Shown here: one piece after another, positions 32,290-50,812 of the stretch
Layout: every line of letters starts with the position of its first letter
How positions within the stretch are numbered: position 1 is the first letter of the stretch
Assembly (NCBI GenBank): GCA_017999435.1
Contig: JAGNLV010000004.1
Coordinates: 186,001 to 250,000 of the forward strand
Direction of reading: 5' to 3'
Origin: Candidatus Zixiibacteriota bacterium
GTDB lineage: Bacteria; Zixibacteria; MSB-5A5; GN15; FEB-12
DNA: 64,000 nt
Notes under the pieces: generated by a model
What the model saw: the letters and a program-made list of their open reading frames with translations, nothing else
Database searches by the model: none
Told to the model about the DNA's origin: nothing
Program-made: the position numbers and the translations under genes

Positions 32290-32628
32290 ATGAAGATGAC
32301 CGACCGGGAGCAGGATGGCGTGGTCGTGCTGGAGCCAAAGGGCAAAATCATGGGCGGGCCCGATGCCAGCCTGCTGCACGACAAACTGCACGACATCATC
32401 GAACGGGGAAGACGACAGGTCGTCATCGACCTGGGCAAAGTGGACTGGATGAATTCGACGGGGTTGGGGATCCTGATATCCAGCTACACGACCCTGCGCA
32501 ATCACCAGGGGGAACTGAAACTGGCCAATGTGACGGACAAGATACAGTCGCTCCTCACCATCACGAAACTGGTGACGGTGTTTGATGCGTACGACTCGGT
32601 CGACGACGCGGTGCGGTCGTTCCGATAG
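32290..32628 (+). CDS. STAS-domain anti-anti-sigma factor (RsbV/SpoIIAA-like)
   Basis: 112 residues forming one STAS domain. The phosphorylation site is visible as Ser56 in VDWMNSTGLGIL, the position modified by RsbW-type kinases. In its unphosphorylated state this class binds the anti-sigma kinase and frees its target. GGAGG lies 10 nt before the ATG. It is followed by an intrinsic terminator and then by the kinase and phosphatase genes, making a partner-switching module. The sigma factor or other output is not in the window. Confidence 0.9.
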   Translation: MKMTDREQDGVVVLEPKGKIMGGPDASLLHDKLHDIIERGRRQVVIDLGKVDWMNSTGLGILISSYTTLRNHQGELKLANVTDKIQSLLTITKLVTVFDAYDSVDDAVRSFR

Positions 32629-32670
32629 CCGGAGACGCAGCGGACAGCCCAGGCGCGGAAATCATCATGA

Positions 32671-32703
32671 CAGGCAGACCTGCCCGGCTCTGCCTGTTTT
32701 TTT
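32671..32703 (+). terminator. Intrinsic terminator between the STAS and RsbW-like genes
   Basis: Stem CAGGCAGA (32671-32678) with TCTGCCTG (32689-32696), 10-nt loop, then seven T (32697-32703). It ends only 15 bp before the next start codon, suggesting partial readthrough rather than an operon end. Confidence 0.8.
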
Positions 32704-32718
32704 GGAGACAGCACAAGT

Positions 32719-33141
32719 ATGAAACGACCCGTCATCAAGGGAAACACCATCGTCGTCCCCTCCAGCCACGACTACCTGCCGACTGTCGACGAGTTCGTGG
32801 AGGGAATCCTGCGCGGCTGGGGAACGGACGAATCGGTGATCGCCGATATCGCCATCTCGGTCTCGGAGCTGGTCAACAACGCCATTGTGCACGGGGGCCG
32901 CGTCAACCCCGAGCAGCAGATCTCGATCGAGGTGACGCGGTCCGACAGCGCGGCGCAGATACGGGTGTCGGACCAGGGGCAGGGGTTTGACCCCGACCAG
33001 GTCAGCGATCCCCTGGCGGAGGAAAACCTCCTCAAAGAGGTCGGGCGGGGTATTTTCATCGTCCGGTCGCTGATGGATAGCGTGGATATCGACGTGAGCG
33101 CGGGCGGCACGTCGGTGACAATCACCAAGACGATCAGGTGA
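32719..33141 (+). CDS. RsbW-like anti-sigma serine kinase
   Basis: 140 residues with the GHKL ATPase fold of SpoIIAB/RsbW. The N box is SVSELVNNAIVHGG, the G1 box VSDQGQGFDP, and GRGIFIVRSLMDSV is the G2 region. Phosphorylates the STAS partner on Ser56 and holds a target protein in the absence of free STAS partner. It is shorter and simpler than RsbW of Bacillus but similar to many such kinases in diderm phyla. The terminator upstream implies lower expression than the STAS gene. Confidence 0.9.
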   Translation: MKRPVIKGNTIVVPSSHDYLPTVDEFVEGILRGWGTDESVIADIAISVSELVNNAIVHGGRVNPEQQISIEVTRSDSAAQIRVSDQGQGFDPDQVSDPLAEENLLKEVGRGIFIVRSLMDSVDIDVSAGGTSVTITKTIR

Positions 33142-33170
33142 CGCGACGCGGTCTGGCGCGAGTCTGACCT

Positions 33171-35459
33171 ATGAACTTCGAGTTGGTACAGATAGTCCTG
33201 TTCTTGCTGACGGGGGGCTTTCTCGTCTTCCTGGCGGTGACCATCGTCCGGGACAACTTCGCCAATCGGCTCAACCGGGTCACGGCCACGATGCTGTTTT
33301 TCGCCGGCCTGGGGCCGCTCTTTTTAGCCCTCGGCGCGATCGTGCGGCTTTCCCCCGACACCGCCCTGGGCTTCGAGGAATCGACCCTCTACCACCTCCA
33401 GCACCTCTGGGAGTTCTTCTTCCCCCTGCTTTTGCTCTTCGCCTGGATTTTCCCGGAGGACCGTCTGCGGGAGTTCAAGCACAACCGTCTGCGGTACCTG
33501 ATTTTCGCTCCGCCGGCGCTCCATCTCGCGCTCGTTTTGCTGTACAACCAGTTCACGGGGGTCCTGCGTTTCCTCCAGATCGAGCCAGGGGATTCGGGGT
33601 TTGTGAGCATCATCCTCAATCCGCTGGCCAAAGTGCTGTCTTTCTTGCTCCTTTCGATCAACACGATCCGCGCCTATGACCAGCAGATCTTCGGGGCGCT
33701 CAACGCCCTCTACGTCGTGGTGGCCGTCTACTTCCTGGAATCGGGCCGCCGGATGGTCACCAATCCCCGTCTGCTGACGCAGACGCGGGTGTTGTTCCGC
33801 GGGATGCGGATCGGCCTCGCGCCGTACGTGATTGCCTTTGCGGGCGGCCTGCTTTTGCCCCGCTTGTTTTCGGATGATGTCCAGGCGGTGCTGGTGGTCG
33901 CGGGGGCGCTGGTGGGCGCGGTCTTTTTGGCCTACGCCACCATCCGCTTCCAGTTCCTCGATGTGCAGTTGCGGTTCCGCCAGTCGTTCGTGTACACGAT
34001 CACCTCCGGCCTGCTCGTCGGGCTGTACATTCTGCTGGTGGTGGAGTCGCGCTCGTTCTTCACGCCGCTGTTCGGCGCCCAGGCGCAGGTGGTGAGCTAC
34101 GCCTTCATCATCGTCATCCTGCTGCTGTTCCAGCCGATCAACAACGCGATCGACAACCTCATCCGCACGCTCTTCATCCGCACGCGCACCGATCACCGGA
34201 ACATCATCGAGCGCTTCTCGCGCCAAGTGATTTCGCTGTTCGACCCGGTCAAGCTCCGGGGGATCATTGAGGACACGCTCAAGACGGCGCTCCTGGTCGA
34301 GCGCGTCTACTTCGTGCTGTTCGACGATGAGGTCGGGGAGTACGCGCTGACCCGAAGCCAGGACCAGCCGCGGAGGATCGTGCTCAGCCGCGACGACCTT
34401 CTCCTGCGCGGGATCAACCTCCTGGACTCCCCCGCCTTTCTCCAGACGCTCGGCGACTACCTGGTGAACTCGCCGCTGGCTGAACTCCTGACCGAGCGGC
34501 AGGTGAAGCTCGTCCTGCCGATGAAGGACGCCAAGCACATGCTCGGGTTCCTGGCCCTGACCGACAAGGTCGCCGGGTACCGGTACTCCTCCGAGGACCT
34601 GAACCTGCTGGGGGTGTTGTCGAACCAGATGGTCACGGCGCTGACCAACGCCCGGCTCTATGTCGATTCGCTCGAGCGGCTTCGCCTGGAGGAGGAAGTG
34701 AGCCTGGCGCGGCAGATCCAGCTCGACCTGCTGCCCGCGGCGCCCCCCAAGCTCGAGCTGTGCGAGATCGCCGTCCATTCGACGCCCTCGCGGACGGTCG
34801 GGGGCGACTTCTACGACTTCATCCCCATTGACGACGCGCGGATAGGGATGGTGATCGCCGACGCTTCGGGCAAGGGGATGCCGGCGGCGCTGATGATCGC
34901 GCAGATCCAGGCGATCATTCGCAGCGAGGTCAACAACGGCAACCCGATCGGGGCTATCATGACGCACCTGAACGACCAGGTGGTGGCCGCCACCTCCTCG
35001 GAGAAATACGTGACGCTCTTCTACGGCGAGCTGAACCGGCGGACGGGGCGGCTCGAGTACTGCAACGCCGGCCACAACTACCCGGTGCTGGTGCGGAGCG
35101 ACGGCGCGGTCGAACTGCTCGTCCAGGGAGGCCCGATCATCGGCGCTTTCCCCGAGATGCGGTACGAATCGGCCGACGTGCAGTTCCGTCCCGGCGACGT
35201 CCTCTTCCTGTTCACCGACGGGCTGTCGGAGGCGATGGACGGCGACGGCCGGGAGTACGGCGAGGAGCGCGTACGGCGCTTTGTCCGCGAACACCGCCAC
35301 CGGGAGGCGGGTGAAATCCTCGAGGCCATCCTCGAGGACGTGCGGGCTTTCGACGCGACCTTCCCGCCGCGCGACGACACCACGATCATCACGATGAAAT
35401 CGAATCACCTCCGGGCGGCCGAAGCCTCCAGGGAATCGCATGGACAAGAAGTATCATGA
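33171..35459 (+). CDS. Membrane PP2C-type serine phosphatase with GAF domain (RsbU-like)
   Basis: 762 residues. About eight hydrophobic segments (residues 5-330) are followed by a GAF-like domain (about 340-490), a short coiled coil (LEEEVSLARQIQLDLLP in part) and a SpoIIE/RsbU phosphatase. The phosphatase shows the metal-ligand motifs TVGGDFYD, ADASGKGMPAAL, FTDGLSEAMD and RDDTTII. It would dephosphorylate the STAS partner in response to a membrane or small-molecule signal. The N-terminal part resembles 7TM sensor regions. Overlaps the following Nudix gene by 20 bp. Confidence 0.9.
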   Translation: MNFELVQIVLFLLTGGFLVFLAVTIVRDNFANRLNRVTATMLFFAGLGPLFLALGAIVRLSPDTALGFEESTLYHLQHLWEFFFPLLLLFAWIFPEDRLREFKHNRLRYLIFAPPALHLALVLLYNQFTGVLRFLQIEPGDSGFVSIILNPLAKVLSFLLLSINTIRAYDQQIFGALNALYVVVAVYFLESGRRMVTNPRLLTQTRVLFRGMRIGLAPYVIAFAGGLLLPRLFSDDVQAVLVVAGALVGAVFLAYATIRFQFLDVQLRFRQSFVYTITSGLLVGLYILLVVESRSFFTPLFGAQAQVVSYAFIIVILLLFQPINNAIDNLIRTLFIRTRTDHRNIIERFSRQVISLFDPVKLRGIIEDTLKTALLVERVYFVLFDDEVGEYALTRSQDQPRRIVLSRDDLLLRGINLLDSPAFLQTLGDYLVNSPLAELLTERQVKLVLPMKDAKHMLGFLALTDKVAGYRYSSEDLNLLGVLSNQMVTALTNARLYVDSLERLRLEEEVSLARQIQLDLLPAAPPKLELCEIAVHSTPSRTVGGDFYDFIPIDDARIGMVIADASGKGMPAALMIAQIQAIIRSEVNNGNPIGAIMTHLNDQVVAATSSEKYVTLFYGELNRRTGRLEYCNAGHNYPVLVRSDGAVELLVQGGPIIGAFPEMRYESADVQFRPGDVLFLFTDGLSEAMDGDGREYGEERVRRFVREHRHREAGEILEAILEDVRAFDATFPPRDDTTIITMKSNHLRAAEASRESHGQEVS

Positions 35460-38786: not shown

Positions 38787-38809
38787 CACAGGAAGTGGGC
38801 GCCCCTGTG
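38787..38809 (+). promoter_or_regulatory. Candidate NtrC-type enhancer dyad
   Basis: CACAGG (38787-38792) and CCTGTG (38804-38809), a perfect inverted repeat with an 11-nt spacer, starting five bases after the activator stop codon. Its centre is about 105 bp upstream of the predicted sigma54 transcription start, a usual enhancer distance. Confidence 0.5.
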
Positions 38810-38876
38810 TCGGACGGCCACGGCCGCCAATCCCGGAAAATTGGCAAGTGCCTGACGATCAACAAGCTTGCCTGGG

Positions 38877-38891
38877 CGGCACGGAATTTGT
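38877..38891 (+). promoter_or_regulatory. Candidate sigma54 (-24/-12) promoter
   Basis: CGGCACGGAATTTGT matches the TGGCACG-N4-TTGC consensus except for the first and last bases, with exact GG-to-GT spacing. Predicted start is near 38903, giving an 18-nt leader containing the GGAGG of the following gene. Next to an NtrC-family gene this is well above chance. Confidence 0.6.
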
Positions 38892-38920
38892 TTTATGGCA
38901 GGGGAAAAACGGAGGATCGC

Positions 38921-40684
38921 ATGCAGAAATTCGTGCTCTTCGGGACAATCACCGGCGCCGCAGCCGCGTGCGCCCTGTGGGCGCCGCCGGCCACAGCCCA
39001 ACCCGGGCCGGAACCGTCGTACACCACCTACCAGCGCGCGACTGCTCCGGAGCCGCTTTTCCGCGTCGCTTTCACGCTGGATGAAATCTCGGTGGCGGCG
39101 GCGGCCGACAGCCTGCCGGCCGAGGCATCGGTCCCCCGGGCGGCCGTGCGCGTCTATCCCGACTCGGTCATTCTCATTGACCGAGTGGCGTGGTTTGACC
39201 GGGCCGGTCTGCACCTCCGCGATCGCCTCTGCCCGTACGACGCCATTGCGGAAACGCGGATCATCGACAGTCCAACGCGGGTGACGATCGATTTTCTCAC
39301 GGTCACCGGCGATGCGGAGCGTCTCGGGCGGCTGCGCCGCGGGAACCTCATGACGTTCAGCGAGCCGATCACGGTCGGCAACCAGCAGTTTGTCCGGGGG
39401 CTCGTGCTGTCGATCACGGGGGACATCGAGGTTCTCGGCGAGGTGAACAAGGATGTGATCTCGCTGTTCGGCGACGTGTACGTCGGTCCGGGGGCCACGG
39501 CCCGCGGCGATATCGCCGGCATCAGCGGCGCGATCACGGTGGCCGACAAGGGATCGGTCTACGGGGAGCTTTACTCGGGGGGCGAGTATTTCGAACGCCG
39601 GCGCCCCCGCTTCTACCGGGAGGAGAATTTCGACTTTCTCGGCGCCTTCGTGTACAACCGGGTCGACGGCGCCACGCCGTATCTCGGTCTGAAGTTTCAC
39701 GACACCGACTCGCTGCTGCCCTCGGCCTGGTTCCGGGCGGGGTATGCGTTGGAGTCCGAACGCTGGCGCACCGAACTCGGCATCGAGCAGCCCCTCTGGC
39801 GCAGGGTGCCGCTCGCGGCGGGCGCGGCCTACTATCGCCGCCTCGCCTCCGAGGATGACCGGCTGCTCGGGGACGAGGAGAATACCGCGTTCGCGCTGTT
39901 GGCAACGGAGGATTACAGGGACTACTGGGAAGCCGAGGGGGCCACGGCGTGGCTTTCGGTCAAGCCGGCGCCGCAGTGGCGGTTCGAGACGCGCTACCGC
40001 TACGAGGAGACAACCTGGCGGCGCTCCTACCGCCACCTCTGGTCGCTCTTCGGCGGCAGCAAGCTGTTCCGCGAGAATTTCAGCCAGGTGTCCGAGGCCG
40101 AGCGTCTCGCCGGCGCGGCCCTCATCGACACGACCGCGCTCGGCTGCCTGGCGTTCGTGCTCGACTGGGACACGCACAACCGGGAAGAGCCGTTCGCTTT
40201 CTCGGGCTGGCATGCCACGGCCGAACTGGAATGGTCGGACCGCGATTTCAGTTCCGATTTCGACTACCGCCGGTACACGCTCACGCTCCGCCGCTACCAG
40301 AAAGTGCACAGCCACGGGATGTTGCTGCTGCGGGCTATGCACGGCAATTCCGACGGTTTCCTGCCGATGCACAAACGGTTCTATCTCGGCGGGCTCGGAA
40401 CGCTCCACGGCTATGACTTCAAGGAGTACGCCGGGACGCGATTCTGGATGGGGAACGCGGAGTACCGTTTCGAATTCCCCCGCTCCGATATCGGCGCGTC
40501 GGTGTTCTGGGACATCGGCCAGATCGCCGACGGGACGAAGCTCGATTCAGCGGTCGACATCAAGCAGTCAATCGGGGCGGCTCTCACCGTGGGGGCCGAT
40601 TTCCGGGTCAGCCTGGCGCGGCGGCTCGACCGCAGCTTCGACAACGACCCGGTAGTGAACGTGCGGCTGGACTTTGTATTTTAG
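38921..40684 (+). CDS. Bactofilin-like segment fused to an Omp85-type outer-membrane barrel
   Basis: 587 residues. A signal peptide (to about 26, ATAQ) is followed by a beta-rich region of about 90 residues, then short repeats resembling bactofilin/polymer-forming beta-helix turns (GDIEVLGEVNKDVISLFGDVYVGPGATARGDIAG in part), and a C-terminal barrel with the Omp85 motif FYLGGLGTLHGYDF and an aromatic last residue. POTRA domains are not evident. The start at 38921 has GGAGG 6 nt upstream; the frame is open 42 codons further up without support. Likely an outer-membrane protein controlled by the adjacent NtrY/NtrC-like pair. Confidence 0.7.
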   Translation: MQKFVLFGTITGAAAACALWAPPATAQPGPEPSYTTYQRATAPEPLFRVAFTLDEISVAAAADSLPAEASVPRAAVRVYPDSVILIDRVAWFDRAGLHLRDRLCPYDAIAETRIIDSPTRVTIDFLTVTGDAERLGRLRRGNLMTFSEPITVGNQQFVRGLVLSITGDIEVLGEVNKDVISLFGDVYVGPGATARGDIAGISGAITVADKGSVYGELYSGGEYFERRRPRFYREENFDFLGAFVYNRVDGATPYLGLKFHDTDSLLPSAWFRAGYALESERWRTELGIEQPLWRRVPLAAGAAYYRRLASEDDRLLGDEENTAFALLATEDYRDYWEAEGATAWLSVKPAPQWRFETRYRYEETTWRRSYRHLWSLFGGSKLFRENFSQVSEAERLAGAALIDTTALGCLAFVLDWDTHNREEPFAFSGWHATAELEWSDRDFSSDFDYRRYTLTLRRYQKVHSHGMLLLRAMHGNSDGFLPMHKRFYLGGLGTLHGYDFKEYAGTRFWMGNAEYRFEFPRSDIGASVFWDIGQIADGTKLDSAVDIKQSIGAALTVGADFRVSLARRLDRSFDNDPVVNVRLDFVF

Positions 40685-41338
40685 ATGCGGTTTTTCCGGC
40701 CACAGGCACGGAGGCGGTCGCCGGCGGCCCTCCTGGCGCTGATCCTGGCGGCCGCCGCCCCGGCCCGCGGGGCCGATCCCCCCGGCGGCGTCGAGTACGA
40801 CATCGTCCGCGCCGATGACTCGCTCGCTGTCTGGCTGAATCTGACTCCCTTCTTCGGCCACCCCGAATACCGGTCGCTGCAGGATGGCATCGACTACGCC
40901 TGCGAGATTGCGATCGAACTCCAACGGCCCCGCAAACTCTTCGGGGCCGTCCCGGTGACTAAGAACTCCTGCACGATCCGGCTCTCCTACCGGCTCCTGA
41001 CAGAAGCTTTCAGGGTGCAGACCTCCGGGCCCGGCCAGTCGGCGAAGGAGCGGCTTTTGCTGTCGCGGGAGGAGGCGGAGGGCTTTCTGGCGGACTCGGT
41101 GGTGGTCAGGGTAGCGGCGCTGGCCGGGCTGCCCGCCGACCGAGATTATCGTATCACATTAGATATATCCCGTATTGCTTTGACCGGCATCAACTTGGCT
41201 GTCGATGACGACACCGGGAGCGTCTCGCCGGTGAAAACCCTGTTCCGCGAGTTCCTGAGGCTGACGAATTACGGCCGCGAGGAGTGGAGCACTACCTCGC
41301 GGTCCTTTTCGCTCAGCGAAGTCCTCCCGCGCCGCTGA
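40685..41338 (+). CDS. Exported protein resembling DUF4390, function unknown
   Basis: 217 residues with an N-terminal signal peptide (Arg-rich start, hydrophobic core, ARG-A cleavage near 29). The mature part (ADDSLAVWLNLTPFFGHPEYRSLQDGIDYACEIAIELQRP in part) has the look of DUF4390-type periplasmic proteins: a two-sheet beta fold with a conserved L-x-x-G-I-x segment. The ATG follows the stop of the outer-membrane protein gene with no gap (TAGATG), so it should share the sigma54 promoter. A role with that barrel protein in the envelope is inferred from context only. Confidence 0.55.
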   Translation: MRFFRPQARRRSPAALLALILAAAAPARGADPPGGVEYDIVRADDSLAVWLNLTPFFGHPEYRSLQDGIDYACEIAIELQRPRKLFGAVPVTKNSCTIRLSYRLLTEAFRVQTSGPGQSAKERLLLSREEAEGFLADSVVVRVAALAGLPADRDYRITLDISRIALTGINLAVDDDTGSVSPVKTLFREFLRLTNYGREEWSTTSRSFSLSEVLPRR

Positions 41339-41436: not shown

Positions 41437-43251
41437 ATGAACCAGGCCCAGATAGAGAAGACAGCCAAGATTCGCATGACCGGGGTCGGAGGCCAGGTCG
41501 GAGCGGGCGCTGAGCACGTGGAACCGCTCGATGTCCTGGCGGACCTGGAGGCCACGCTGGACGAGGTGGCCGAGGCCAATCCGCGCCTGACGTCCGAAGA
41601 AACGCACACGTCCAAGAGCGTGGAGGACCTCAAGGCGCTCCTGGAGGTCTCCCTGGCCATCAACTCGTCGCTGGTGACCGACGACGTGCTGCAGATCGTC
41701 ATGCGCAAAGCGATCGAGCTGATGCAGGCGGAGCGGGGGCTGGTGATGCTGCTGGACGACGCCAACCAGCTCCAGGTCCGGTCCGCCTACAATCTCTGCC
41801 GCGACGAGATGATGGACGAGGATTTCAAAGTCTCCAACTCGGTCACCTCCCGCGTGGCCGAGACGGGCAAGTCGATCTACACGTCCGATGCGCTCTCCGA
41901 CGAGCGCTATGCCAACCAGCGCTCGGTTGTCGAACTGCACCTGCGCTCCATCATGTGCGTGCCGCTGAAAGTCAAGGAGCAGGTGGTCGGAGTAATCTAC
42001 CTGGACAATTCGAGCGAGAGCCGGATGTTCCTCAAGTCGGACCTCTACCTGTTCGAGCTCTATGCGCAACTGGTGTCCAACGCCCTGCACAACGCCAACA
42101 TCTACGACCGGCTTTTGAACCTGCAGCGCTACAACGAGTCGGTGATCGCCAAGGCGCCCATGGGCACGGTGGTGCTGGACTCCGACGGCCACATCACGAC
42201 GATCAACACCGCGGCACTCGAGATTTTCGATTTCAACGGCGACAAGATCGTCCTGGTCGGAGCGGGCGACAAACCGACCCGCTTTCTCGATCTGCTCCAG
42301 GAGACCGAGGTCACCCGCTGGGCGCACATGATCAACACGGCTCTGGCTACCCAGGAGGACTTTTCCGACTCCCGCTACTTCCACAACACCGGCTACCTGG
42401 AGAAGGCGCTCTCGATCAAGATCTCGCCCATCTCCCAGCTCCCCCACGGGAAGGACGGCGTCATCATGGCGGTCGAGGACATCACCGAGAAGGTGATCAT
42501 GGAGAAGTACGTGATCCTCTCGGAGAAGCTGGTGGCCAAGGGGGAAATGGCGGCCTCGATCGCCCACGAGCTGAACAACTACCTGGCCATCGCCTCCAAT
42601 AACGCCGAGCTCATGGCGCTCAATATCGACCGCGAGAAATTCGACAAGGTGAAGTTCAACGCCAAGGCGATCACCGAGAACGTCTTTAAAATCAAACGCT
42701 TCGTCGACAGCCTCATGGACTTCTCCAAGCCGGAATCCGAGTTCATCAGCTACGACATCAAGCACCTCATCGAAGACCTGCTCTTCTCCCTGCGCGTGCA
42801 GCCGCGCTTCAAGCGCACCCACTTCACGATCGACCTCGATCCGCGCATCCCGAATATCGAGATGGATGTCGGCCAGATCCAACAGGTGCTCATGAACCTC
42901 CTGAACAACGCGGCCGACGCCATCGAGGAGCGGGTGGTGCAGGAAAACGCGGGTCTGGACTTCAAGCGCGAGATCACGATCCGCGCGGTCTACGAGCCCG
43001 AACGGGAACGCATCATCACCACCGTGAGCGACAACGGCACCGGCATGTCGGACGAGACGCGCAGCAAGATCTTCACCCTGCACTTCACGACCAAGAAGGG
43101 GGGCCACGGCCTGGGGTTGTCCAACTGCAAGAAGATCATCCAGGCGCACCACGGCGACCTGCTGGTTGACTCGACGCCCGGCGAAGGCACCGAATTCAGA
43201 GTGATTCTCCCCCGCTTTCAGCCGGAGAAGCCGAAGAGCGACAAAAAATGA
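41437..43251 (+). CDS. GAF-PAS sensor histidine kinase
   Basis: 604 residues, soluble. GAF domain at about 70-225, PAS domain at about 230-355, then DHp with H377 (AASIAHELNNYLAIA) and an intact GHKL ATPase (N box NLLNNAADAIEE, G1 VSDNGTGM, G2 GHGLGLSNCKKII). The unusual spacing ELNNY instead of ELNNPL places it among atypical HisKA kinases. Its stop overlaps the start of the Ser/Thr kinase gene (ATGA). No receiver-domain gene adjoins, so its phosphotransfer partner is elsewhere or the output passes to the coupled kinase. Confidence 0.9.
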   Translation: MNQAQIEKTAKIRMTGVGGQVGAGAEHVEPLDVLADLEATLDEVAEANPRLTSEETHTSKSVEDLKALLEVSLAINSSLVTDDVLQIVMRKAIELMQAERGLVMLLDDANQLQVRSAYNLCRDEMMDEDFKVSNSVTSRVAETGKSIYTSDALSDERYANQRSVVELHLRSIMCVPLKVKEQVVGVIYLDNSSESRMFLKSDLYLFELYAQLVSNALHNANIYDRLLNLQRYNESVIAKAPMGTVVLDSDGHITTINTAALEIFDFNGDKIVLVGAGDKPTRFLDLLQETEVTRWAHMINTALATQEDFSDSRYFHNTGYLEKALSIKISPISQLPHGKDGVIMAVEDITEKVIMEKYVILSEKLVAKGEMAASIAHELNNYLAIASNNAELMALNIDREKFDKVKFNAKAITENVFKIKRFVDSLMDFSKPESEFISYDIKHLIEDLLFSLRVQPRFKRTHFTIDLDPRIPNIEMDVGQIQQVLMNLLNNAADAIEERVVQENAGLDFKREITIRAVYEPERERIITTVSDNGTGMSDETRSKIFTLHFTTKKGGHGLGLSNCKKIIQAHHGDLLVDSTPGEGTEFRVILPRFQPEKPKSDKK

Positions 43252-46232
43252 CTTCGCCCGCCCTTCCGCCGGGGTATTGCCGGACGGCGCCTCTGGGCCG
43301 GGGAGGGACAGCGGAGGTAGTGCGCGCGTTCAGCGCCGCGCTGGGGCGCGAGGTGGCGCTCAAGATCCCCTTGGCCGATGCGGATCCGTCAGGCGCGGCG
43401 CCGTTTGCGGCGCTCGTGCGGCGGGAGCGTCTTTTGATCGGCGGGCGGCGGTTCCCCGGACTGGTGCGGCTGATCGAAGCCGGCGAGGCGCCCCCGTACG
43501 TGGCCATGGAAATCTGCCCCGGACCGACGCTCGACAGGCTGGGCAAAATCGACTCCCTCTCCCTCGCCCTGAATCTCCTGGCGGCGCTCACCGCCGACCT
43601 CGAATACCTCCGGGCCGCGGGAATTGTGCATGGCGATCTCAAACCGCAGAACGTTTTCCTCCCCGCCGCTTGGGAGGGGCTTGACGGCCGGCAACTGTTC
43701 TGGGTCAAGCTCTCCGACTTCTCGCTCGGGCGCGCCGACGGGGAGTCCGACAGCGACCGCGCCGGACTGGGGACAGTCGGCTACCTGGCGCCGGAGACGA
43801 TCGTCGGCGGCGCCGCCGAGCACCAGAGCGACCTGTTCGCCCTCGGGGTCACCGCCTACCAGATGCTGACCGGGCTCCACCCGTTCATGAACGGCGAGAC
43901 GGAGCCGGCCGCGATCAACAGCCGCTGCCGCGAGGAGGAGCCGCCTCAGGTCGACACCCTCCGCCCCGATGTCCCAGCCGCTCTGTCCCGCCTGATTGCC
44001 CGGCTGCTTCACAAGGATCGCGCTCAACGGCCGGTCTCGGCCTGGGAGGTATGCCTCGAGTTGGAGCGGGTGGGGGCCGAGTATCCGTTTCGCCGGGCGC
44101 TCCAGCCCGGCCACTTTCTGCGCGCGGGCGCGTCATGGGAAGATGCGCGGGACGGCCTGCCGGTGGAGTGGGGGGATCACACGGACTACCTGGCCGCTCT
44201 CTCCTGGGGGTCGCCCGCGCAACTTCGGATGATTCTGACCGAGAATTTCCGGAGGGGAAACCTGGTCTATTCCGACGGTCGGTTTCGATTTCAGCACCGC
44301 CCCTACTGGCCCTGCCGGCTGCGCCGGGCGGCGTTGGCGGAATTTTCCGCCGCCCCGAGAGCGGCGCAGCGGCGCCTGGTGCGGGATGCGGTCCTCGACG
44401 GGCAGAGATCCCCGGAGGGAACGCACGCGGCCGCAACCATGCTCCTGCGGCCGTTGCTGCGGCCGTCGACCGTGCGGCGGCTGTCGGCGGCGCCGGCGGC
44501 GCAGGCCGAACAGGAGGAGCGGCACGCGGCAGCGGCACGGCTTTCTGTGCAGGCGGGAGATCTGGAACGGGCGGAACGGTGCTGCTACCAGGCCGCCATC
44601 CTCATGCAGAAGGAGCACCGGGCGGCGGCCGCGCTCCGGCTGATCCAGACGGTTCTCGATTACGCCGCGCTGGTGCGGCGCGAGTGGGAGACGGTGTCGC
44701 TGATGAAGCTGCGGGGCGATCTGCTGAAGACCTCGGGCGACACCGAGGCGGCGCACCGCACCTACCTTCAGGCGGCCGGCCTCTATGACGGCCGCCCGCC
44801 CGACCCGCTGCTGGGGCGGATCTACAATTCGATCGGCGATCTGTACAAGATGAAGCAGAAGTTCGCCGAGGGGATCGAGGCGCTGGAGCGGGCGCGGCAG
44901 ATATATGAGGCGATCGGCGACGAGCTGGAGTTGTCGCACACGGTCAACAATATCGGCAACATGCATTTCGTGACCGGCCGCAGCGGCGAGGCCCTGCGCC
45001 ACTACCGCCGGGCGCTGCGCATTCAGCGCCACCTCGGGTCCTCCTCGGAGGTCGCCTCCACGTTGAACAACATGGGAGCGGCCGCCGGTGTCGGGGGGCG
45101 CCTGCGCCGCGCAGCGACCCTCTTCCGGCTGTCCCTGCGGCTCCAACGGGAACTGGGAGACCTCGGTGAAATCGCCCGCACCCTCAACAATCTCGGCTAT
45201 CTCCTGTTCCTTCTCGGCGAGAAGGGGCAGTCGATCCAACTGCTCGCCGAGTCGCTCGAACTCAACCGCCGCATCGGCAACCGGAAAGAGATCCTGTTCA
45301 ATCTGGACAACCTGACCAATGTCACGATCGGGGCCGGGCGACTGCGCGAGTCGGCGGAATATCTGCGGGAGGGGATGGCGATTGCGGCCGAGGTTCAGGA
45401 TATCCCCCACCAGGTCATTTTCAGCCGCAACGCCTCGGTCGTCATGCGGCGCATGGGGCGTATCCGCGAAGCGCTCGAGTACCAGCGCGCGGCCGAGGCC
45501 GGGGCGGATCGGACCGACGACCGGGAGGAGAGAATCCGTCTGCAGATCAACGCGGCGAGTCTGCGCGCGGCGGTCGGGGATGACGACCAGGCCCTGGCGC
45601 TCGCCGGGTCCGCGGCGCGCGAGGCCGAGCGGATCGCGTGCAAGGCAGAGCTTCTGAACGCCCTCCTGCTCGTCACGCGGCTGGCCGATGAGCCGGCGCG
45701 CGAGGATGAGGCGATCGCCCTCGTGCGCGATCTCGACCTCACCCGCGAGCGCCTGCTGGTCCGGCTCAACCGGGCCGAGCGCCGCCTGCACAGCGGCCGG
45801 GCGGCCGATGCGGCGCCGGTGGTGGAGGAGTTTCTCCTGGAGGCCGACCTCGGGGAGGACCTGGAGCAGCCGCGCCTGCTGCTGGTGCGCGCCGAATACG
45901 GGATGGCGGTCGGCCGGGTAATGGACGCCGGGGCGGACGCGCAGCGCGCCGCGGCGCTGGCCGGCCAGTGCGGTCTGGCCCCGGAAAAAATGTCGGCCCT
46001 GGCTCTGCTGGCCCAGCGACATCTGGCGGAGGGGGAGTATGAGACGGCGTTCGCGGTCAGCCGCCAGGCACTCGCGATCGGCAAGGCGATCGCCGAGAGC
46101 ATCCCCGACCCCGCCGACCGGCGCCTCTACCAGAGCGCGCGGCCGATCCAGGCGATAGCAGCAACCGTGAAGCAGATACAGGAACGGATCGGGCAAAAAA
46201 GAGCGGGCAGGGACTTGACCCCTGCCCGCTAG
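43248..46232 (+). CDS. Ser/Thr protein kinase with long TPR-repeat region
   Basis: 994 residues. The kinase domain (about 10-275) has lysine K39 (VALKI), HGDLKPQN with catalytic D130 in place of the usual HRD, and DFSLG with D157 in place of DFG. Both are variant but keep the catalytic Asp residues. The rest is mostly alpha-helical with TPR-like repeats from about 500 onward (GRIYNSIGDLYKMKQKFAEGIEALERAR and similar in part). No AAA ATPase or DNA-binding domain is seen, unlike PknK. Coupled to the GAF-PAS kinase by a 4-bp overlap. Its last 30 bases lie over the terminator of the convergent peptide gene. Confidence 0.87.
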   Translation: MTSPALPPGYCRTAPLGRGGTAEVVRAFSAALGREVALKIPLADADPSGAAPFAALVRRERLLIGGRRFPGLVRLIEAGEAPPYVAMEICPGPTLDRLGKIDSLSLALNLLAALTADLEYLRAAGIVHGDLKPQNVFLPAAWEGLDGRQLFWVKLSDFSLGRADGESDSDRAGLGTVGYLAPETIVGGAAEHQSDLFALGVTAYQMLTGLHPFMNGETEPAAINSRCREEEPPQVDTLRPDVPAALSRLIARLLHKDRAQRPVSAWEVCLELERVGAEYPFRRALQPGHFLRAGASWEDARDGLPVEWGDHTDYLAALSWGSPAQLRMILTENFRRGNLVYSDGRFRFQHRPYWPCRLRRAALAEFSAAPRAAQRRLVRDAVLDGQRSPEGTHAAATMLLRPLLRPSTVRRLSAAPAAQAEQEERHAAAARLSVQAGDLERAERCCYQAAILMQKEHRAAAALRLIQTVLDYAALVRREWETVSLMKLRGDLLKTSGDTEAAHRTYLQAAGLYDGRPPDPLLGRIYNSIGDLYKMKQKFAEGIEALERARQIYEAIGDELELSHTVNNIGNMHFVTGRSGEALRHYRRALRIQRHLGSSSEVASTLNNMGAAAGVGGRLRRAATLFRLSLRLQRELGDLGEIARTLNNLGYLLFLLGEKGQSIQLLAESLELNRRIGNRKEILFNLDNLTNVTIGAGRLRESAEYLREGMAIAAEVQDIPHQVIFSRNASVVMRRMGRIREALEYQRAAEAGADRTDDREERIRLQINAASLRAAVGDDDQALALAGSAAREAERIACKAELLNALLLVTRLADEPAREDEAIALVRDLDLTRERLLVRLNRAERRLHSGRAADAAPVVEEFLLEADLGEDLEQPRLLLVRAEYGMAVGRVMDAGADAQRAAALAGQCGLAPEKMSALALLAQRHLAEGEYETAFAVSRQALAIGKAIAESIPDPADRRLYQSARPIQAIAATVKQIQERIGQKRAGRDLTPAR
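46195..46230 (-). terminator. Intrinsic terminator of the small peptide gene
   Basis: Minus strand: GCGGGCAGGG pairs with CCCTGCCCGC (46203-46212 with 46220-46229, plus an A-T pair), 7-nt loop, followed by TCTTTTTTG. It lies about 25 bp past the peptide stop and within the 3' end of the convergent kinase gene, where it has no T-tract on the plus strand. This confirms a minus-strand transcript. Confidence 0.88.
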
Positions 46233-46254
46233 TTCATACGACCAGCGGGTCGAC

Positions 46255-46362
46255 TCAGCCGCCGCCACCGGGACCAAGCAGGTTGATCCCCTGGCCGCCC
46301 ACGCTGAAGCCGCCCGGAGCAATACGAGCTTCGAGTTGCATGATCTCGAGCTGGTACCTCAC
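46255..46362 (-). CDS. 35-residue glycine-rich peptide, candidate exported/RiPP-like precursor
   Basis: A short gene read from GTG at 46360-46362 to TGA at 46255-46257. Residues 1-18 are charged and amphipathic, with residues 9-18 reading QLEARIAPGG; residues 19-35 are uncharged and Gly-rich, ending INLLGPGGGG. An ideal Shine-Dalgarno (AAGGAGGTGA, 46367-46376) sits 7 nt from the start by its GGAGG core. A promoter lies 100 bp upstream and a terminator follows, so this is a complete transcription unit. The upstream minus-strand gene encodes a PqqD-like/M50 protease/HlyD protein. A leader ending at GG18 and a 17-residue core is my inference; I do not recognise the family with certainty. Confidence 0.75.
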   Translation of the reverse strand: MRYQLEIMQLEARIAPGGFSVGGQGINLLGPGGGG

Positions 46363-46366
46363 AGAC

Positions 46367-46376
46367 TCACCTCCTT
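46367..46376 (-). promoter_or_regulatory. Perfect Shine-Dalgarno of the peptide gene
   Basis: Minus strand AAGGAGGTGA, complementary to the 16S 3' end over all ten bases. It selects the GTG at 46362 over the in-frame ATG at residue 8 (46339-46341) and indicates high translation. Confidence 0.85.
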
Positions 46377-46464
46377 ACGCGATCTGTGGAGATGTCCTTG
46401 CGGAAAGTGCGAGGGACTTCTCCCGTTGTTTAGGTGTTGCAAATGCGCAACCCTGCCCTTAGCG

Positions 46465-46494
46465 CAAAGATATAAACCGCCCGTGCGATGTCAA
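46465..46494 (-). promoter_or_regulatory. Strong promoter of the peptide gene
   Basis: Minus strand TTGACA (46489-46494), 16-bp spacer, TATCTTTG (46465-46472), which also fits the TAnnTTTG -7 element of Bacteroidetes. Leader of about 95 nt to the GTG. It lies between the transporter-like gene stop (46589) and the peptide, so the peptide need not rely on readthrough. Confidence 0.75.
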
Positions 46495-46588: not shown

Positions 46589-48895
46589 CTACCACCACGA
46601 CCAGAATTCAACGCGCAGGAAAGAGGCGATCTTGCGCCCCAGCTTGGCCGCCACCGAGATCCGTCCGATCTCGATCTTCGCATACCCGGTCATCCCGGCC
46701 GCCAGCGCATTGTCCTCGTTCGATACGACCGCGGAAACCAGAAACCGGGCGCTGCCGCCGAGCGACTGGGCCGCCGAGGGAATGTGGCGGACCTCCCCGA
46801 GGAACATGCGCTGCGGGTACGACCGCACTTTCAGCAGCACCGGCCGGCGCGTCTCCACCAGGTCGATGTCGAAGTCCGAGACGGGGACGAGCACCTCGAT
46901 CGTGCCGCTGTTGAGAACCGAGAGAATGCGGCCGTCGTCCGGGGCGATACGCACGGTGCCGGCGACCGGCGATGTGATCGACTGCGCGTCCTTCTGGGTC
47001 TGGAGGAACTCGACGCGGGCGCGCTGCTTGTCGATCTGGGCCATCACGACGGCCTCCTGTTCGGGCTTGGGTCCGGCTTTGAGCAGGTCGAGGCGGGCCT
47101 GGCGGTTGGCCAGTTCGGCGCGGGCGAGCTCGAGGGCGGACTCGGCCGCCTCATACTGCTCGGTGCTGATCCCGTCGCGCTCCCGGAGTTCTCTCAGGCG
47201 CTGAAATTGGCGCTCCTGCTGGGCGAGCGTCGCCTGCGCGGCGTTCACCTCGGCGATGGCCTCGGCGACCGCCTCCGGTTTGGGCGGAGACTTCAGCAGC
47301 ACCAGCTCGCGCCTGAGGCGGTCCAGTTCCGCCAGCGCGGCCACCAGTTCGGTGCTGAGCTGGTTCGACAAAAGCATCGCCAGCGTGTCCCCCTCCTCCA
47401 CCCGGTCGCCATCGGAGACCAGCGGCGTGAGGTCAAGCGACGCCATGTCCTGCGAAACCATCTGCATGTACCCCGAGCGCGACTCGGGGTCCTCGCCGCG
47501 GCGGATGAGCGTCCGCTCGAGCATGCCGAACTCGTTCAGCCGGAGATTAAACTCGGCGATAGGGGCGACCGTGACCTCGCCCGAGACCCGGTGCGGGAAG
47601 GGCACGGCGAACAATCCGATCGCCATACTGGCACCCGCCAGCAGATAGGCGGACACGCGAACCGGATTGCGCAGCGAGGTACTCATATACTTCAGGTGTT
47701 GCACGAACCCGCGGCCGGCGGCCGCGAGGCCGTCTTTCAGCAGCGCGGTCAGCACCACGACCAGCGCAAGTAACCCCCACCCGCCGAAGTTGGCAAGTAA
47801 GAACTTGCTCGCCCAGACGAGGATCACGCCGATGAGCAGCCCCGAGTAGAGCACCGCGAGCACGGCATAGGCGAGGTAGATTCGTTTCTCGCGCCGGGGA
47901 ACCGGGACACTTTCGACCGGCCAGCCAAGCAGCACCCGTCGGCTCCACGCGCCGAGGTAGCCGAACGCGCGCGCGCGAAGGTTCGGGATGTCGAGCCAGT
48001 CCGACAGCAAGTAGTACCCGTCGAGCTTGATCAAGGGGTTGAAGTTGAACAGCACGCTGATGCCGCTGACGAGTATGATGATGAGGGCGATGCGGCTGGG
48101 AAAGGTGCCGGGGACGGTCACGCGCCAGACGATGACGGCGAGCGCAAAGAGGAGAAACTGGACGAAGGGACCGACCCAGGTGACGGTCAGGCGGTGGGAC
48201 TTCCGGGGAAACAGCCAGGCATCGGACACGTCGGCGTAGAAACACGGCTGGAAAAACAGCAGCAGGAACCCCATCTCGCGCACCTCGCCGCCGTAGTAAT
48301 GACAGGCCAGGGCGTGGGCAAACTCATGGACGACGAGCGTCATGAAGACGGTAAGCATGATGAGAGCGATCGACCCGAGCTGGAGGAGGCGGTCCGGGCG
48401 GTAGGCGAAGTCGCCCGCGTGGGCGACGAAGAGCGCCAGTCCCACGGCGATGATCGCCAGGCCGGACGCCAGCACCAGCGGATGGTGGACGGGCCGGTAC
48501 CACGGCAGAAGGCGCTCCAGGAGCCGCCGGGGGTCAAGGCCCTTGAGCTTGATGAAGAGCAGACGGGAGGCCAGGCTGCGCCGGCCGGGGGCGCGGAGCG
48601 AGACGCGGGCCGCCTGCTCGGTCCGCCCCTCATCGAGGAACTGCAGGGCGGCCAGCGATTCGATGAAGGCGCTCACTGCGCCGGCGTCGAGGTCGAGCCC
48701 GAATTTCCCGCGGAAGCGCCGGGCGATTTCCTCCGGCGCCGTCTCCCCATCGAGCTGTCCGGCCAGCCAGTACTCCGGCTCGCGCAGGCGAAAGTAGTTT
48801 CCGCTGCGGGGATCCTTGACCGTGTACACCGTCCGGCCGTCGACCACCGACGGCGCCGCAATCAGATCGGAGCGGAGCCGGGCGTAGGGTGCCAT
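46589..48895 (-). CDS. PqqD-like / M50 zinc protease / HlyD adaptor fusion
   Basis: 768 residues. Residues 1-95 resemble PqqD-type winged-helix domains (DPRSGNYFRLREPEYWLAGQLDG), which bind peptide leaders in RiPP systems. A multi-helix M50 protease region follows with HEFAH (H190, E191, H194) and the third ligand in NFNPLIKLDGYYLLSD (D292). The C-terminal half (about 425-768) is a HlyD-like adaptor with a lipoyl half-motif (LVSDGDRVEEGD), a coiled coil (about 500-625) and beta-barrel segments. M50 proteins of the YydH type mature or export peptides. Here no ABC transporter or radical SAM gene adjoins, but the small peptide gene lies just downstream. Confidence 0.88.
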   Translation of the reverse strand: MAPYARLRSDLIAAPSVVDGRTVYTVKDPRSGNYFRLREPEYWLAGQLDGETAPEEIARRFRGKFGLDLDAGAVSAFIESLAALQFLDEGRTEQAARVSLRAPGRRSLASRLLFIKLKGLDPRRLLERLLPWYRPVHHPLVLASGLAIIAVGLALFVAHAGDFAYRPDRLLQLGSIALIMLTVFMTLVVHEFAHALACHYYGGEVREMGFLLLFFQPCFYADVSDAWLFPRKSHRLTVTWVGPFVQFLLFALAVIVWRVTVPGTFPSRIALIIILVSGISVLFNFNPLIKLDGYYLLSDWLDIPNLRARAFGYLGAWSRRVLLGWPVESVPVPRREKRIYLAYAVLAVLYSGLLIGVILVWASKFLLANFGGWGLLALVVVLTALLKDGLAAAGRGFVQHLKYMSTSLRNPVRVSAYLLAGASMAIGLFAVPFPHRVSGEVTVAPIAEFNLRLNEFGMLERTLIRRGEDPESRSGYMQMVSQDMASLDLTPLVSDGDRVEEGDTLAMLLSNQLSTELVAALAELDRLRRELVLLKSPPKPEAVAEAIAEVNAAQATLAQQERQFQRLRELRERDGISTEQYEAAESALELARAELANRQARLDLLKAGPKPEQEAVVMAQIDKQRARVEFLQTQKDAQSITSPVAGTVRIAPDDGRILSVLNSGTIEVLVPVSDFDIDLVETRRPVLLKVRSYPQRMFLGEVRHIPSAAQSLGGSARFLVSAVVSNEDNALAAGMTGYAKIEIGRISVAAKLGRKIASFLRVEFWSWW

Positions 48896-48944: not shown

Positions 48945-50699
48945 CTACCGGCGGAGGGTTTCGAGCAGACGCGCGTTGTAGAAATCGACCAGGTCTTCCC
49001 GCCGCAGCACGCCCACCACCCTCTCCCCCGGTCCGCCATCGACCACCGGGATCAGCCGGAGGCCGCGGGCGCTAAAGAGCTGGAAGGCCCGTTCGAGCGT
49101 ATCGTCGGTCCCCAGGGTCACGACCTCCTCGTGGACGATGTCCCTGGCGATGACCAGGCGATCCAGCGTGCGCTGGCTCAGCACGGCGCGGATATCCTGA
49201 AATGAAATCACTCCGCGGAGCACCTCCCGACGGTCCATGACGAGGAAATAGGACTCCCGCGACTCCTCGATCTTCACCAGGATGTCGTGGAGGCTGGCCG
49301 AGATATCCACCGTCTCGAATTCGCGGGACATGACCTCGGCCACGCGGTGGGAGCGCAGGACGTTGACGTCGCGGCCGCCGCGAATGTCGATGCCGCTCCG
49401 GATGAGTTTCGCCGTGAAAATCGAATGCGGGTAGAGCCGGCGGGCGACGAGCGCCGCGAACACGACGACGACCATGAGCGGCAGGATGACCCGGAAGTCG
49501 GAGGTCATTTCGAAAATGATCAGGAGGGCGGTGATCGGGGCGTGGGTGGCCGCGGCAACCATCCCGGCCATCCCCACCAGGGCGTACGCGCCCGGAGGGG
49601 CGGTCGCGGCCGGAAAGAGGCGCTCGGCGACCGCGCCGAACGCTCCCCCGGCGCCGGCGCCGATGAACAGGGACGGGGCGAAGATCCCCCCGGAGTTGCC
49701 CGACCCGAGAGTGAGCGAGGTGGCCAGGATTTTGAGAAAGACCAGCGCCGCCATCAGCCAGAGCGCCATCTCACCCTGCAGCGTCAGCCTGATCGTCCCG
49801 TATCCGTCGGCCAGCACCTGCGGGAAAAAGACGGCGATTCCGCCAAGGAGCAGTCCCCCCAATGCGGGTTTGAGCCAATTGGCGATTGCCATTTTCTCGA
49901 AGAACTCCTCACAGGCGACCATCATCCGCGTGAAGACGAAACCAACCCCGCCGAGGAGCACGCCGAGCAGGGCGTAGAGGGGCATCTCCCAGCCCGAGAC
50001 GAGGGCGAAGGTGGGCACGGCGAAAGCGGGATTCGCGCCCAGGACCGAACGGGTCACCACCGAGGCGACGACGGAGGAGATGATCACCGGGGAGAAGGTG
50101 GCGAGCGCGAAATCCCCGAGGACGACCTCGAGGGTGAAAATCACGCCGGCAATGGGGGCGTTGAAAACCGAGGAAATGCCGGCGGCCGCCCCGCACCCCA
50201 CCAGGATTTTGATGCGGTCGCCCGACATGCGGAAGAGCTGACCGATCGTCGACCCCAAGGCCGAACCGATCTGGACGATCGGTCCCTCCCGTCCGGCCGA
50301 CCCCCCGGACCCGAGGCAGATGGCCGAGGCGATCGTTTTGACGGCTGCGACGCGGGGCCGAATGATACCTCCGAGCCGGGCGACGGCGTTCATCACTTCG
50401 GGCACACCGTGGCCCCGGGCCTCGGCCGCGAACCGGAGCACGATCGCCCCCACGATCAGGCCGCCGAGGGCCGGGACAATCGGCAACCACCACTTGAACG
50501 ACCCCGCCCCGAGGCTTTTGGTCAGCACCTGGTCGGTGAGACCGAAGAACAGGTGGTTGGCGAAGTCGATCAGGGCCCGAAAGGCCAGCGCCCCCAAAGC
50601 CGTAACCAGCCCGACAAATACCGAGAGCACAATCAGGATTTCGGTCGGCGACTCCAGGAACCGCTTGAGGATCCGGCTCGTGACGCGGAGCGGTTTCAT
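48945..50699 (-). CDS. CLC-family chloride channel/transporter with CBS pair
   Basis: 584 residues with the CLC signatures GSGGSAGREGP (including the gating glutamate of GREGP), GNSGGIFAPSLFIGAG and the later tyrosine-containing region. About a dozen hydrophobic segments are followed by two C-terminal CBS domains (about 460-580), which sense nucleotides in relatives. The first filter motif reads GSGGSAG rather than GSGIP, a variant common in bacterial CLCs. ATG 50699 is chosen because it opens directly on MKPLRVTSRILKRFLES; a GTG at 50735 is possible. No fluoride-specific motif was seen. Confidence 0.9.
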   Translation of the reverse strand: MKPLRVTSRILKRFLESPTEILIVLSVFVGLVTALGALAFRALIDFANHLFFGLTDQVLTKSLGAGSFKWWLPIVPALGGLIVGAIVLRFAAEARGHGVPEVMNAVARLGGIIRPRVAAVKTIASAICLGSGGSAGREGPIVQIGSALGSTIGQLFRMSGDRIKILVGCGAAAGISSVFNAPIAGVIFTLEVVLGDFALATFSPVIISSVVASVVTRSVLGANPAFAVPTFALVSGWEMPLYALLGVLLGGVGFVFTRMMVACEEFFEKMAIANWLKPALGGLLLGGIAVFFPQVLADGYGTIRLTLQGEMALWLMAALVFLKILATSLTLGSGNSGGIFAPSLFIGAGAGGAFGAVAERLFPAATAPPGAYALVGMAGMVAAATHAPITALLIIFEMTSDFRVILPLMVVVVFAALVARRLYPHSIFTAKLIRSGIDIRGGRDVNVLRSHRVAEVMSREFETVDISASLHDILVKIEESRESYFLVMDRREVLRGVISFQDIRAVLSQRTLDRLVIARDIVHEEVVTLGTDDTLERAFQLFSARGLRLIPVVDGGPGERVVGVLRREDLVDFYNARLLETLRR

Positions 50700-50812
50700 A
50701 CGGGCGCAATAACGGGCCGGCCTATGCGGGGGCACAAGTTTTTAGCGCCCGACCCGCGCGAAAAAAGCCTTCTGCCCACGGGGACTTCCCCGCCGACCAA
50801 CCCGGAAAGCGC

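Follow-up and report, generated by a model that had tools for sequence, protein, structure and literature searches.

The 35-codon frame at positions 46255-46362 on the minus strand of the window (the whole 64,000-nucleotide stretch analysed, from a 3.5 Mb assembly of the phylum Candidatus Zixiibacteriota) is a genuine, conserved protein-coding gene. We propose that it encodes a precursor peptide whose leader is bound by the RRE of an adjacent RRE-M50-HlyD fusion protein, cut by the M50 protease after Pro16 and separated from a core that would be exported through the HlyD part to act as a signal; we assign this reading as a whole a probability of about 0.68.

The preliminary description had placed a complete set of expression signals around this frame, and promoter, Shine-Dalgarno sequence, GTG frame and TGA are all present on the minus strand where it put them. 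A sigma-70-like promoter (TTGACA-N16-TATCTT, 46467-46494, with the -35 at 46494-46489 and TATCTT at 46472-46467) is the sole promoter-like match of our scan between 46150 and 46620, where 0.2 matches were expected. It is followed by a ten-base Shine-Dalgarno sequence (AAGGAGGTGA, 46367-46376) that is kept in most relatives, by the GTG start at 46362 and by a frame that translates to MRYQLEIMQLEARIAPGGFSVGGQGINLLGPGGGG and ends in TGA at 46257-46255. An intrinsic terminator (46195-46230, minus strand) also stands where it had been described, with a T-tract (CTTTTTT), although its stem comprises 13 pairs by scan rather than 10; the folding energy of the 53-nt terminator stretch is -27.5 kcal/mol (z -4.9 versus shuffles). 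Rfam and tRNA searches of the locus gave no match, so the transcript is not explained by any known RNA family. The terminator stem (46202-46232) also forms the last codons of a convergent gene for a kinase-TPR protein, which ends at 46232.

Relatives of the peptide are widespread in the phylum. The 35-residue query alone matched 82 of 132 genomes (E up to 1), and a 48-row profile gave convincing matches in 103 of the 132. These relatives are 20-35 residues long and mostly span 22-26 codons, which is below the length accepted by common gene finders. Most start after a AGGAGGTGA-type site and have their own hairpin and T-run behind the frame. Differences among relatives fall on third codon positions in 61% of comparisons, versus 27% for first and 20% for second positions, and a promoter score of at least 10/12 was reached in 41 of 71 upstream regions as compared to 5 of 71 shuffled ones. 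Conservation of frame, Shine-Dalgarno sequence and terminator, together with the third-position excess and the promoter enrichment, places the gene far beyond chance. The search for homologues with a conserved coding frame and the check for synonymous bias that the preliminary description had proposed thus both confirm its claim of an unannotated coding gene. Pfam and NCBIfam searches with 48 peptides returned weak matches at most (Amm_Lyn leader, E 0.06, two members), which we set aside.

The family leader reads M-x-x-Y-x-L-x-[VI]-E-x-LE-[AE]-[RK]-[IV]-A-P, or in a looser form Y-x-L-x-[VI]-E-x-LE-x-[RK]-[IV]-A-P. Within the leader, two Leu, one Glu and the Pro (Pro16 in the window's peptide) are identical in 73 distinct peptides, and both length and sequence vary after the Pro. 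Cores comprise 6-20 residues with a mode of 8, often follow x-G-(hydrophobic)-S-x-G-G-Q and usually have Gln, Gly, Asp or Glu as their last residue; the window's peptide has a core of 19 residues and is among the few members with a Gly/Pro-rich core extension. We accordingly divide the window's peptide into a predicted leader of residues 1-16 (MRYQLEIMQLEARIAP, 46315-46362, minus strand), which holds the invariant residues, and a predicted core of residues 17-35 (GGFSVGGQGINLLGPGGGG, 46258-46314, minus strand). The relatives bear out the earlier impression that the front half is conserved and that the glycine-rich end varies more, and a precursor, as then suspected, is very probable. The cut suggested at the time, after a GG at residue 18, is probably wrong: residue 17 varies among relatives (V, I, A, L, G, S or M), leaving no conserved double-glycine site, Pro16 is invariant, and the partner is an M50 rather than a C39 protease. 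We considered a double-glycine leader with a C39 peptidase and rejected it, as GG is not conserved, the partner is M50 and no C39 is present at the locus. The leader-core boundary thus probably lies after Pro16, not Gly18, with the cleavage site itself predicted from this pattern.

Directly upstream of the peptide gene lies a 768-aa fusion of an RRE (PqqD-like), an M50 site-2 protease and a HlyD adaptor (46589-48895, minus strand). Its N-terminus (residues 1-90, 48626-48895, minus strand) has an RRE fold as judged from structure prediction: the AlphaFold model contains three strands followed by three helices (bbb-aaa), and the nearest solved structures in Foldseek are the TbiB1-leader and lasso B1-leader RRE complexes and PqqD. 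The N-terminal region matched Pfam PqqD in 17 of 23 fusion members; comparison of this domain with the PDB by sequence gave chance matches, and it was the fold comparison that yielded the RRE assignment. The zinc motif HEFAH (HExxH, residues 190-194, 48314-48328, minus strand) has invariant H190, E191 and H194, and the C-terminal part is modelled as a HlyD/MacA-type adaptor fold. Against the daptide protease model NF041824 the M50 part scored 224.9 bits, below the equivalog cut-off of 300, and against the epipeptide protease model NF058609 it scored weakly (37.5 bits versus a cut-off of 225). We identified no HlyD partner (ABC transporter or outer-membrane protein) at the locus and no modification enzyme in the conserved neighborhood of the peptide. 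Upstream of the fusion gene, at a distance of 49 bp, is a gene for a CLC chloride channel with CBS domains (48945-50735, minus strand), an arrangement conserved in a subset of genomes.

Peptide and fusion occur together across the phylum. Both were found in 96 of the 132 genomes, the peptide alone in 7, the fusion alone in 5 and neither in 24 (Fisher p=1.7e-15, a statistic that ignores phylogeny); many of the genomes counted are incomplete, and those with one partner are mostly incomplete MAGs. Of the 96 genomes with both, 59 have the fusion immediately upstream of the peptide, on the same strand and 153-1044 bp apart, 9 have the two on a single contig but far from each other, and 28 have them on different contigs. 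Synteny within one phylum is partly common inheritance; retention of both genes even where they are unlinked argues for a functional pair.

We also searched for the leader as a DNA pattern in 84,980 species genomes and found 51 loci, nearly all of them in Zixibacteria or in otherwise-labelled genomes placed there by their neighboring genes. Three loci fell outside this set: one encodes a surface-type protein of Gemmataceae, and the others encode peptides and come from a second phylum, where they were located in two genomes, one of them labelled Armatimonadetes. The fusion was present in 4 of 148 sampled genomes of this second phylum, one copy scoring above the Pfam cut-offs for PqqD, M50 and HlyD. 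The peptide profile independently picked out three of these four genomes (p=7e-5 for these three), and in the fourth, inspection of the small contig that carries the fusion revealed a LGIEKLEERITP peptide; two doubtful profile matches (G257 and G260) are not accounted for by a fusion. One genome encodes four peptides that read EEMEERIAP or EELEERIAP and then continue into unlike cores ending FWR or LWR. Conservation in the second phylum ends at the Pro, an independent mark of the leader-core boundary. Three of these four peptides adjoin paralogous membrane proteins (GAF-GGDEF or GAF-SpoIIE outputs), and the fusion gene in this phylum is convergent with the gene for a TPR-HD protein. The FWR/LWR peptides lie at L132:8889-9259 and also at 1052-1114 and 3374-3421, and near the four is a radical SAM protein resembling RiPP C-methyltransferases, with a C-terminus that appears PqqD-like by eye. 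Elsewhere, peptides of 58 residues in which the core MSAQGAAHISAQGAAHNHD is repeated (L133:8988-9164 and L144:7350-7526) are flanked by a GAF protein on one side and a membrane protein on the other, the latter an HD-domain protein in L133.

Among characterized systems, daptides offer the closest comparison. The daptide protein MpaP is an RRE-site-2 protease that removes the MpaA leader, which bears the motif ELExMEAP, and leader numbering ends at EAP with P at -1 (PMC10036551). Daptide loci (NF041824) share the N-terminal RRE-M50 fusion and have short co-occurring ORFs, often several, and the leaders ELExMEAP and [VI]ExLExRIAP both end in AP. However, the Zixibacteria protease carries HlyD and, unlike the daptide protease, scores below the NF041824 cut-off; the peptides do not have the invariant C-terminal Thr of daptide precursors; the aminotransferase, dehydrogenase and methyltransferase genes found beside daptide precursors do not recur at the peptide locus; and the Zixibacteria are uncultured and their locus adjoins signaling genes. 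The best explanation is probably a system that works like daptide leader removal without daptide chemistry. An M50 protein also serves the epipeptide pathway (YydH/LiaK, NF058609), whereas the peptide locus is without the epipeptide radical SAM. More generally, two features of RRE-dependent RiPP systems, an RRE in a partner protein and a short precursor with conserved leader and more variable core, are present here. RRE-guided leader biology gains a family of peptides that is characteristic of an entire uncultured phylum and whose members mostly fall below the length that gene finders accept.

By analogy with the daptide RRE-site-2 protease we infer an order of binding, cutting and export. The RRE of the fusion would bind the 16-residue leader, gripping LExRIAP; the M50 intramembrane protease domain would cut after the invariant Pro16; the HlyD part would pass the freed core across the envelope; and the core, 19 residues here and about 8 in most relatives, would serve as a signaling peptide tied to the adjacent kinases. 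In Gram-positive bacteria the M50 protease Eep releases short pheromones of about 8 residues, and RRNPP receptors are of the TPR type. Unlike Eep pheromone precursors, the precursor here has no hydrophobic segment, its leader would be read by an RRE, and its receptor is a candidate.

That candidate reader is the convergent gene for a 994-aa Ser/Thr kinase-TPR protein (43248-46232, plus strand; Pkinase and TPR), which adjoins the peptide at almost every locus with full flanks, across families. A GAF-PAS histidine kinase gene (41437-43251, plus strand) belongs to the same conserved block. These neighbors, and the recurrence of signal-output neighbors in the second phylum, suggest that the core acts as a signal linked to the kinase-TPR and histidine kinase genes, and thus a peptide-signaling route in an uncultured phylum. 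Because the kinase-TPR protein probably resides in the cytoplasm, a core that is secreted would have to be re-imported or detected by a different sensor. Cores also differ between lineages: genus g11, which carries arrays of 4-7 peptides, has a different core class (S-[RK]-[YW]-G), and both lineages without a kinase-TPR neighbor (genus g11 and G010) have unusual cores. Unusual cores (YGWSID, RLSNGDQ) also occur beside kinase-TPR genes at some loci, and a tie between core class and loss of this neighbor is only suggestive. A defense role for the kinase-TPR protein is not supported, since the PADLOC matches of its kinase domain reflect generic kinase similarity. Ahead of the histidine kinase, 38795-41338 encodes an Omp85-superfamily protein, whose gene is conserved in most loci, and a DUF4390 protein. 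Not far from the peptide block, 32290-35459 encodes a STAS protein and an RsbW-like kinase (by size and sequence), then a SpoIIE phosphatase (Pfam), a set that resembles partner switching.

The same components could belong to a bacteriocin-like RiPP antimicrobial exported by the fusion: RiPP and bacteriocin loci typically carry an RRE, a protease and HlyD, the peptide arrays of one genus have changed cores, and the radical SAM like RiPP C-methyltransferases lies near four second-phylum peptides. We regard this as unlikely: most genomes of the phylum carry a single, slowly changing copy in vertical synteny, the locus has no immunity or modification gene, and the core, a small and mostly uncharged segment, contains no Cys or Thr. 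Vertical conservation, along with the PqqD-like domain of the fusion, would suit a precursor that, like PqqA in PQQ formation, gives rise to a modified, cofactor-like product through an enzyme encoded elsewhere. The conserved neighborhood is without a modification enzyme, however, and the core keeps Gly, Ser and Gln, not the residues that are usually crosslinked, making such a product very improbable.

A peptide that stays uncleaved and controls the fusion by binding its RRE, as a small subunit or regulator, would account for the roughly 1:1 presence of the two genes in most genomes and for the conservation of some core positions. Yet the core varies more than the leader does and differs in length among relatives, the peptides can form tandem arrays, and RRE site-2 proteases are known leader-removal enzymes (PMC10036551), and so we consider an uncleaved role quite unlikely. 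Cleavage and release of the core as a signal remains our preferred reading.

The leader has a counterpart in planctomycetes, where the N-terminal cell-surface signal LxLExLExRxxP has been described in Tuwongella immobilis (PF07595; PMC8567305). Signal and leader share the residue pattern Y-x-L-x-[VI]-E-x-LE-x-R-x-A-P, but the planctomycete version stands at the N-terminus of large surface proteins of up to 10,566 residues and the Zixibacteria version belongs to a mini-peptide as its leader; PF07595 itself gave no match to 48 peptides at E up to 10. We tentatively raise, as a possible but rather doubtful idea, that RRE-M50-HlyD proteins of several phyla read one trafficking code, LxLExLExRxAP, which would be the long-unexplained export signal at the head of large planctomycete surface proteins and, as the entire leader of a mini-gene in Zixibacteria, would yield a signal of about 8 residues for the kinase-TPR protein. 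Within the literature searched, the fusion is the first concrete candidate reader of the planctomycete signal, which was described in 2004 and still called "novel" in 2021. Genome-level support is mixed, making the planctomycete link a testable lead rather than a result. When the planctomycete motif was searched as a looser DNA pattern, its occurrence was not associated with the fusion (fusion in 16 of 62 genomes, p=0.49), possibly because this pattern is not confined to N-termini. The fusion occurs in 65 of 294 genomes of the planctomycete phylum (22%); among these 294 it was found in 12 of the 24 genomes with any PF07595 match (p=0.0016) and in all seven genomes with at least two PF07595 matches (p=2e-5).
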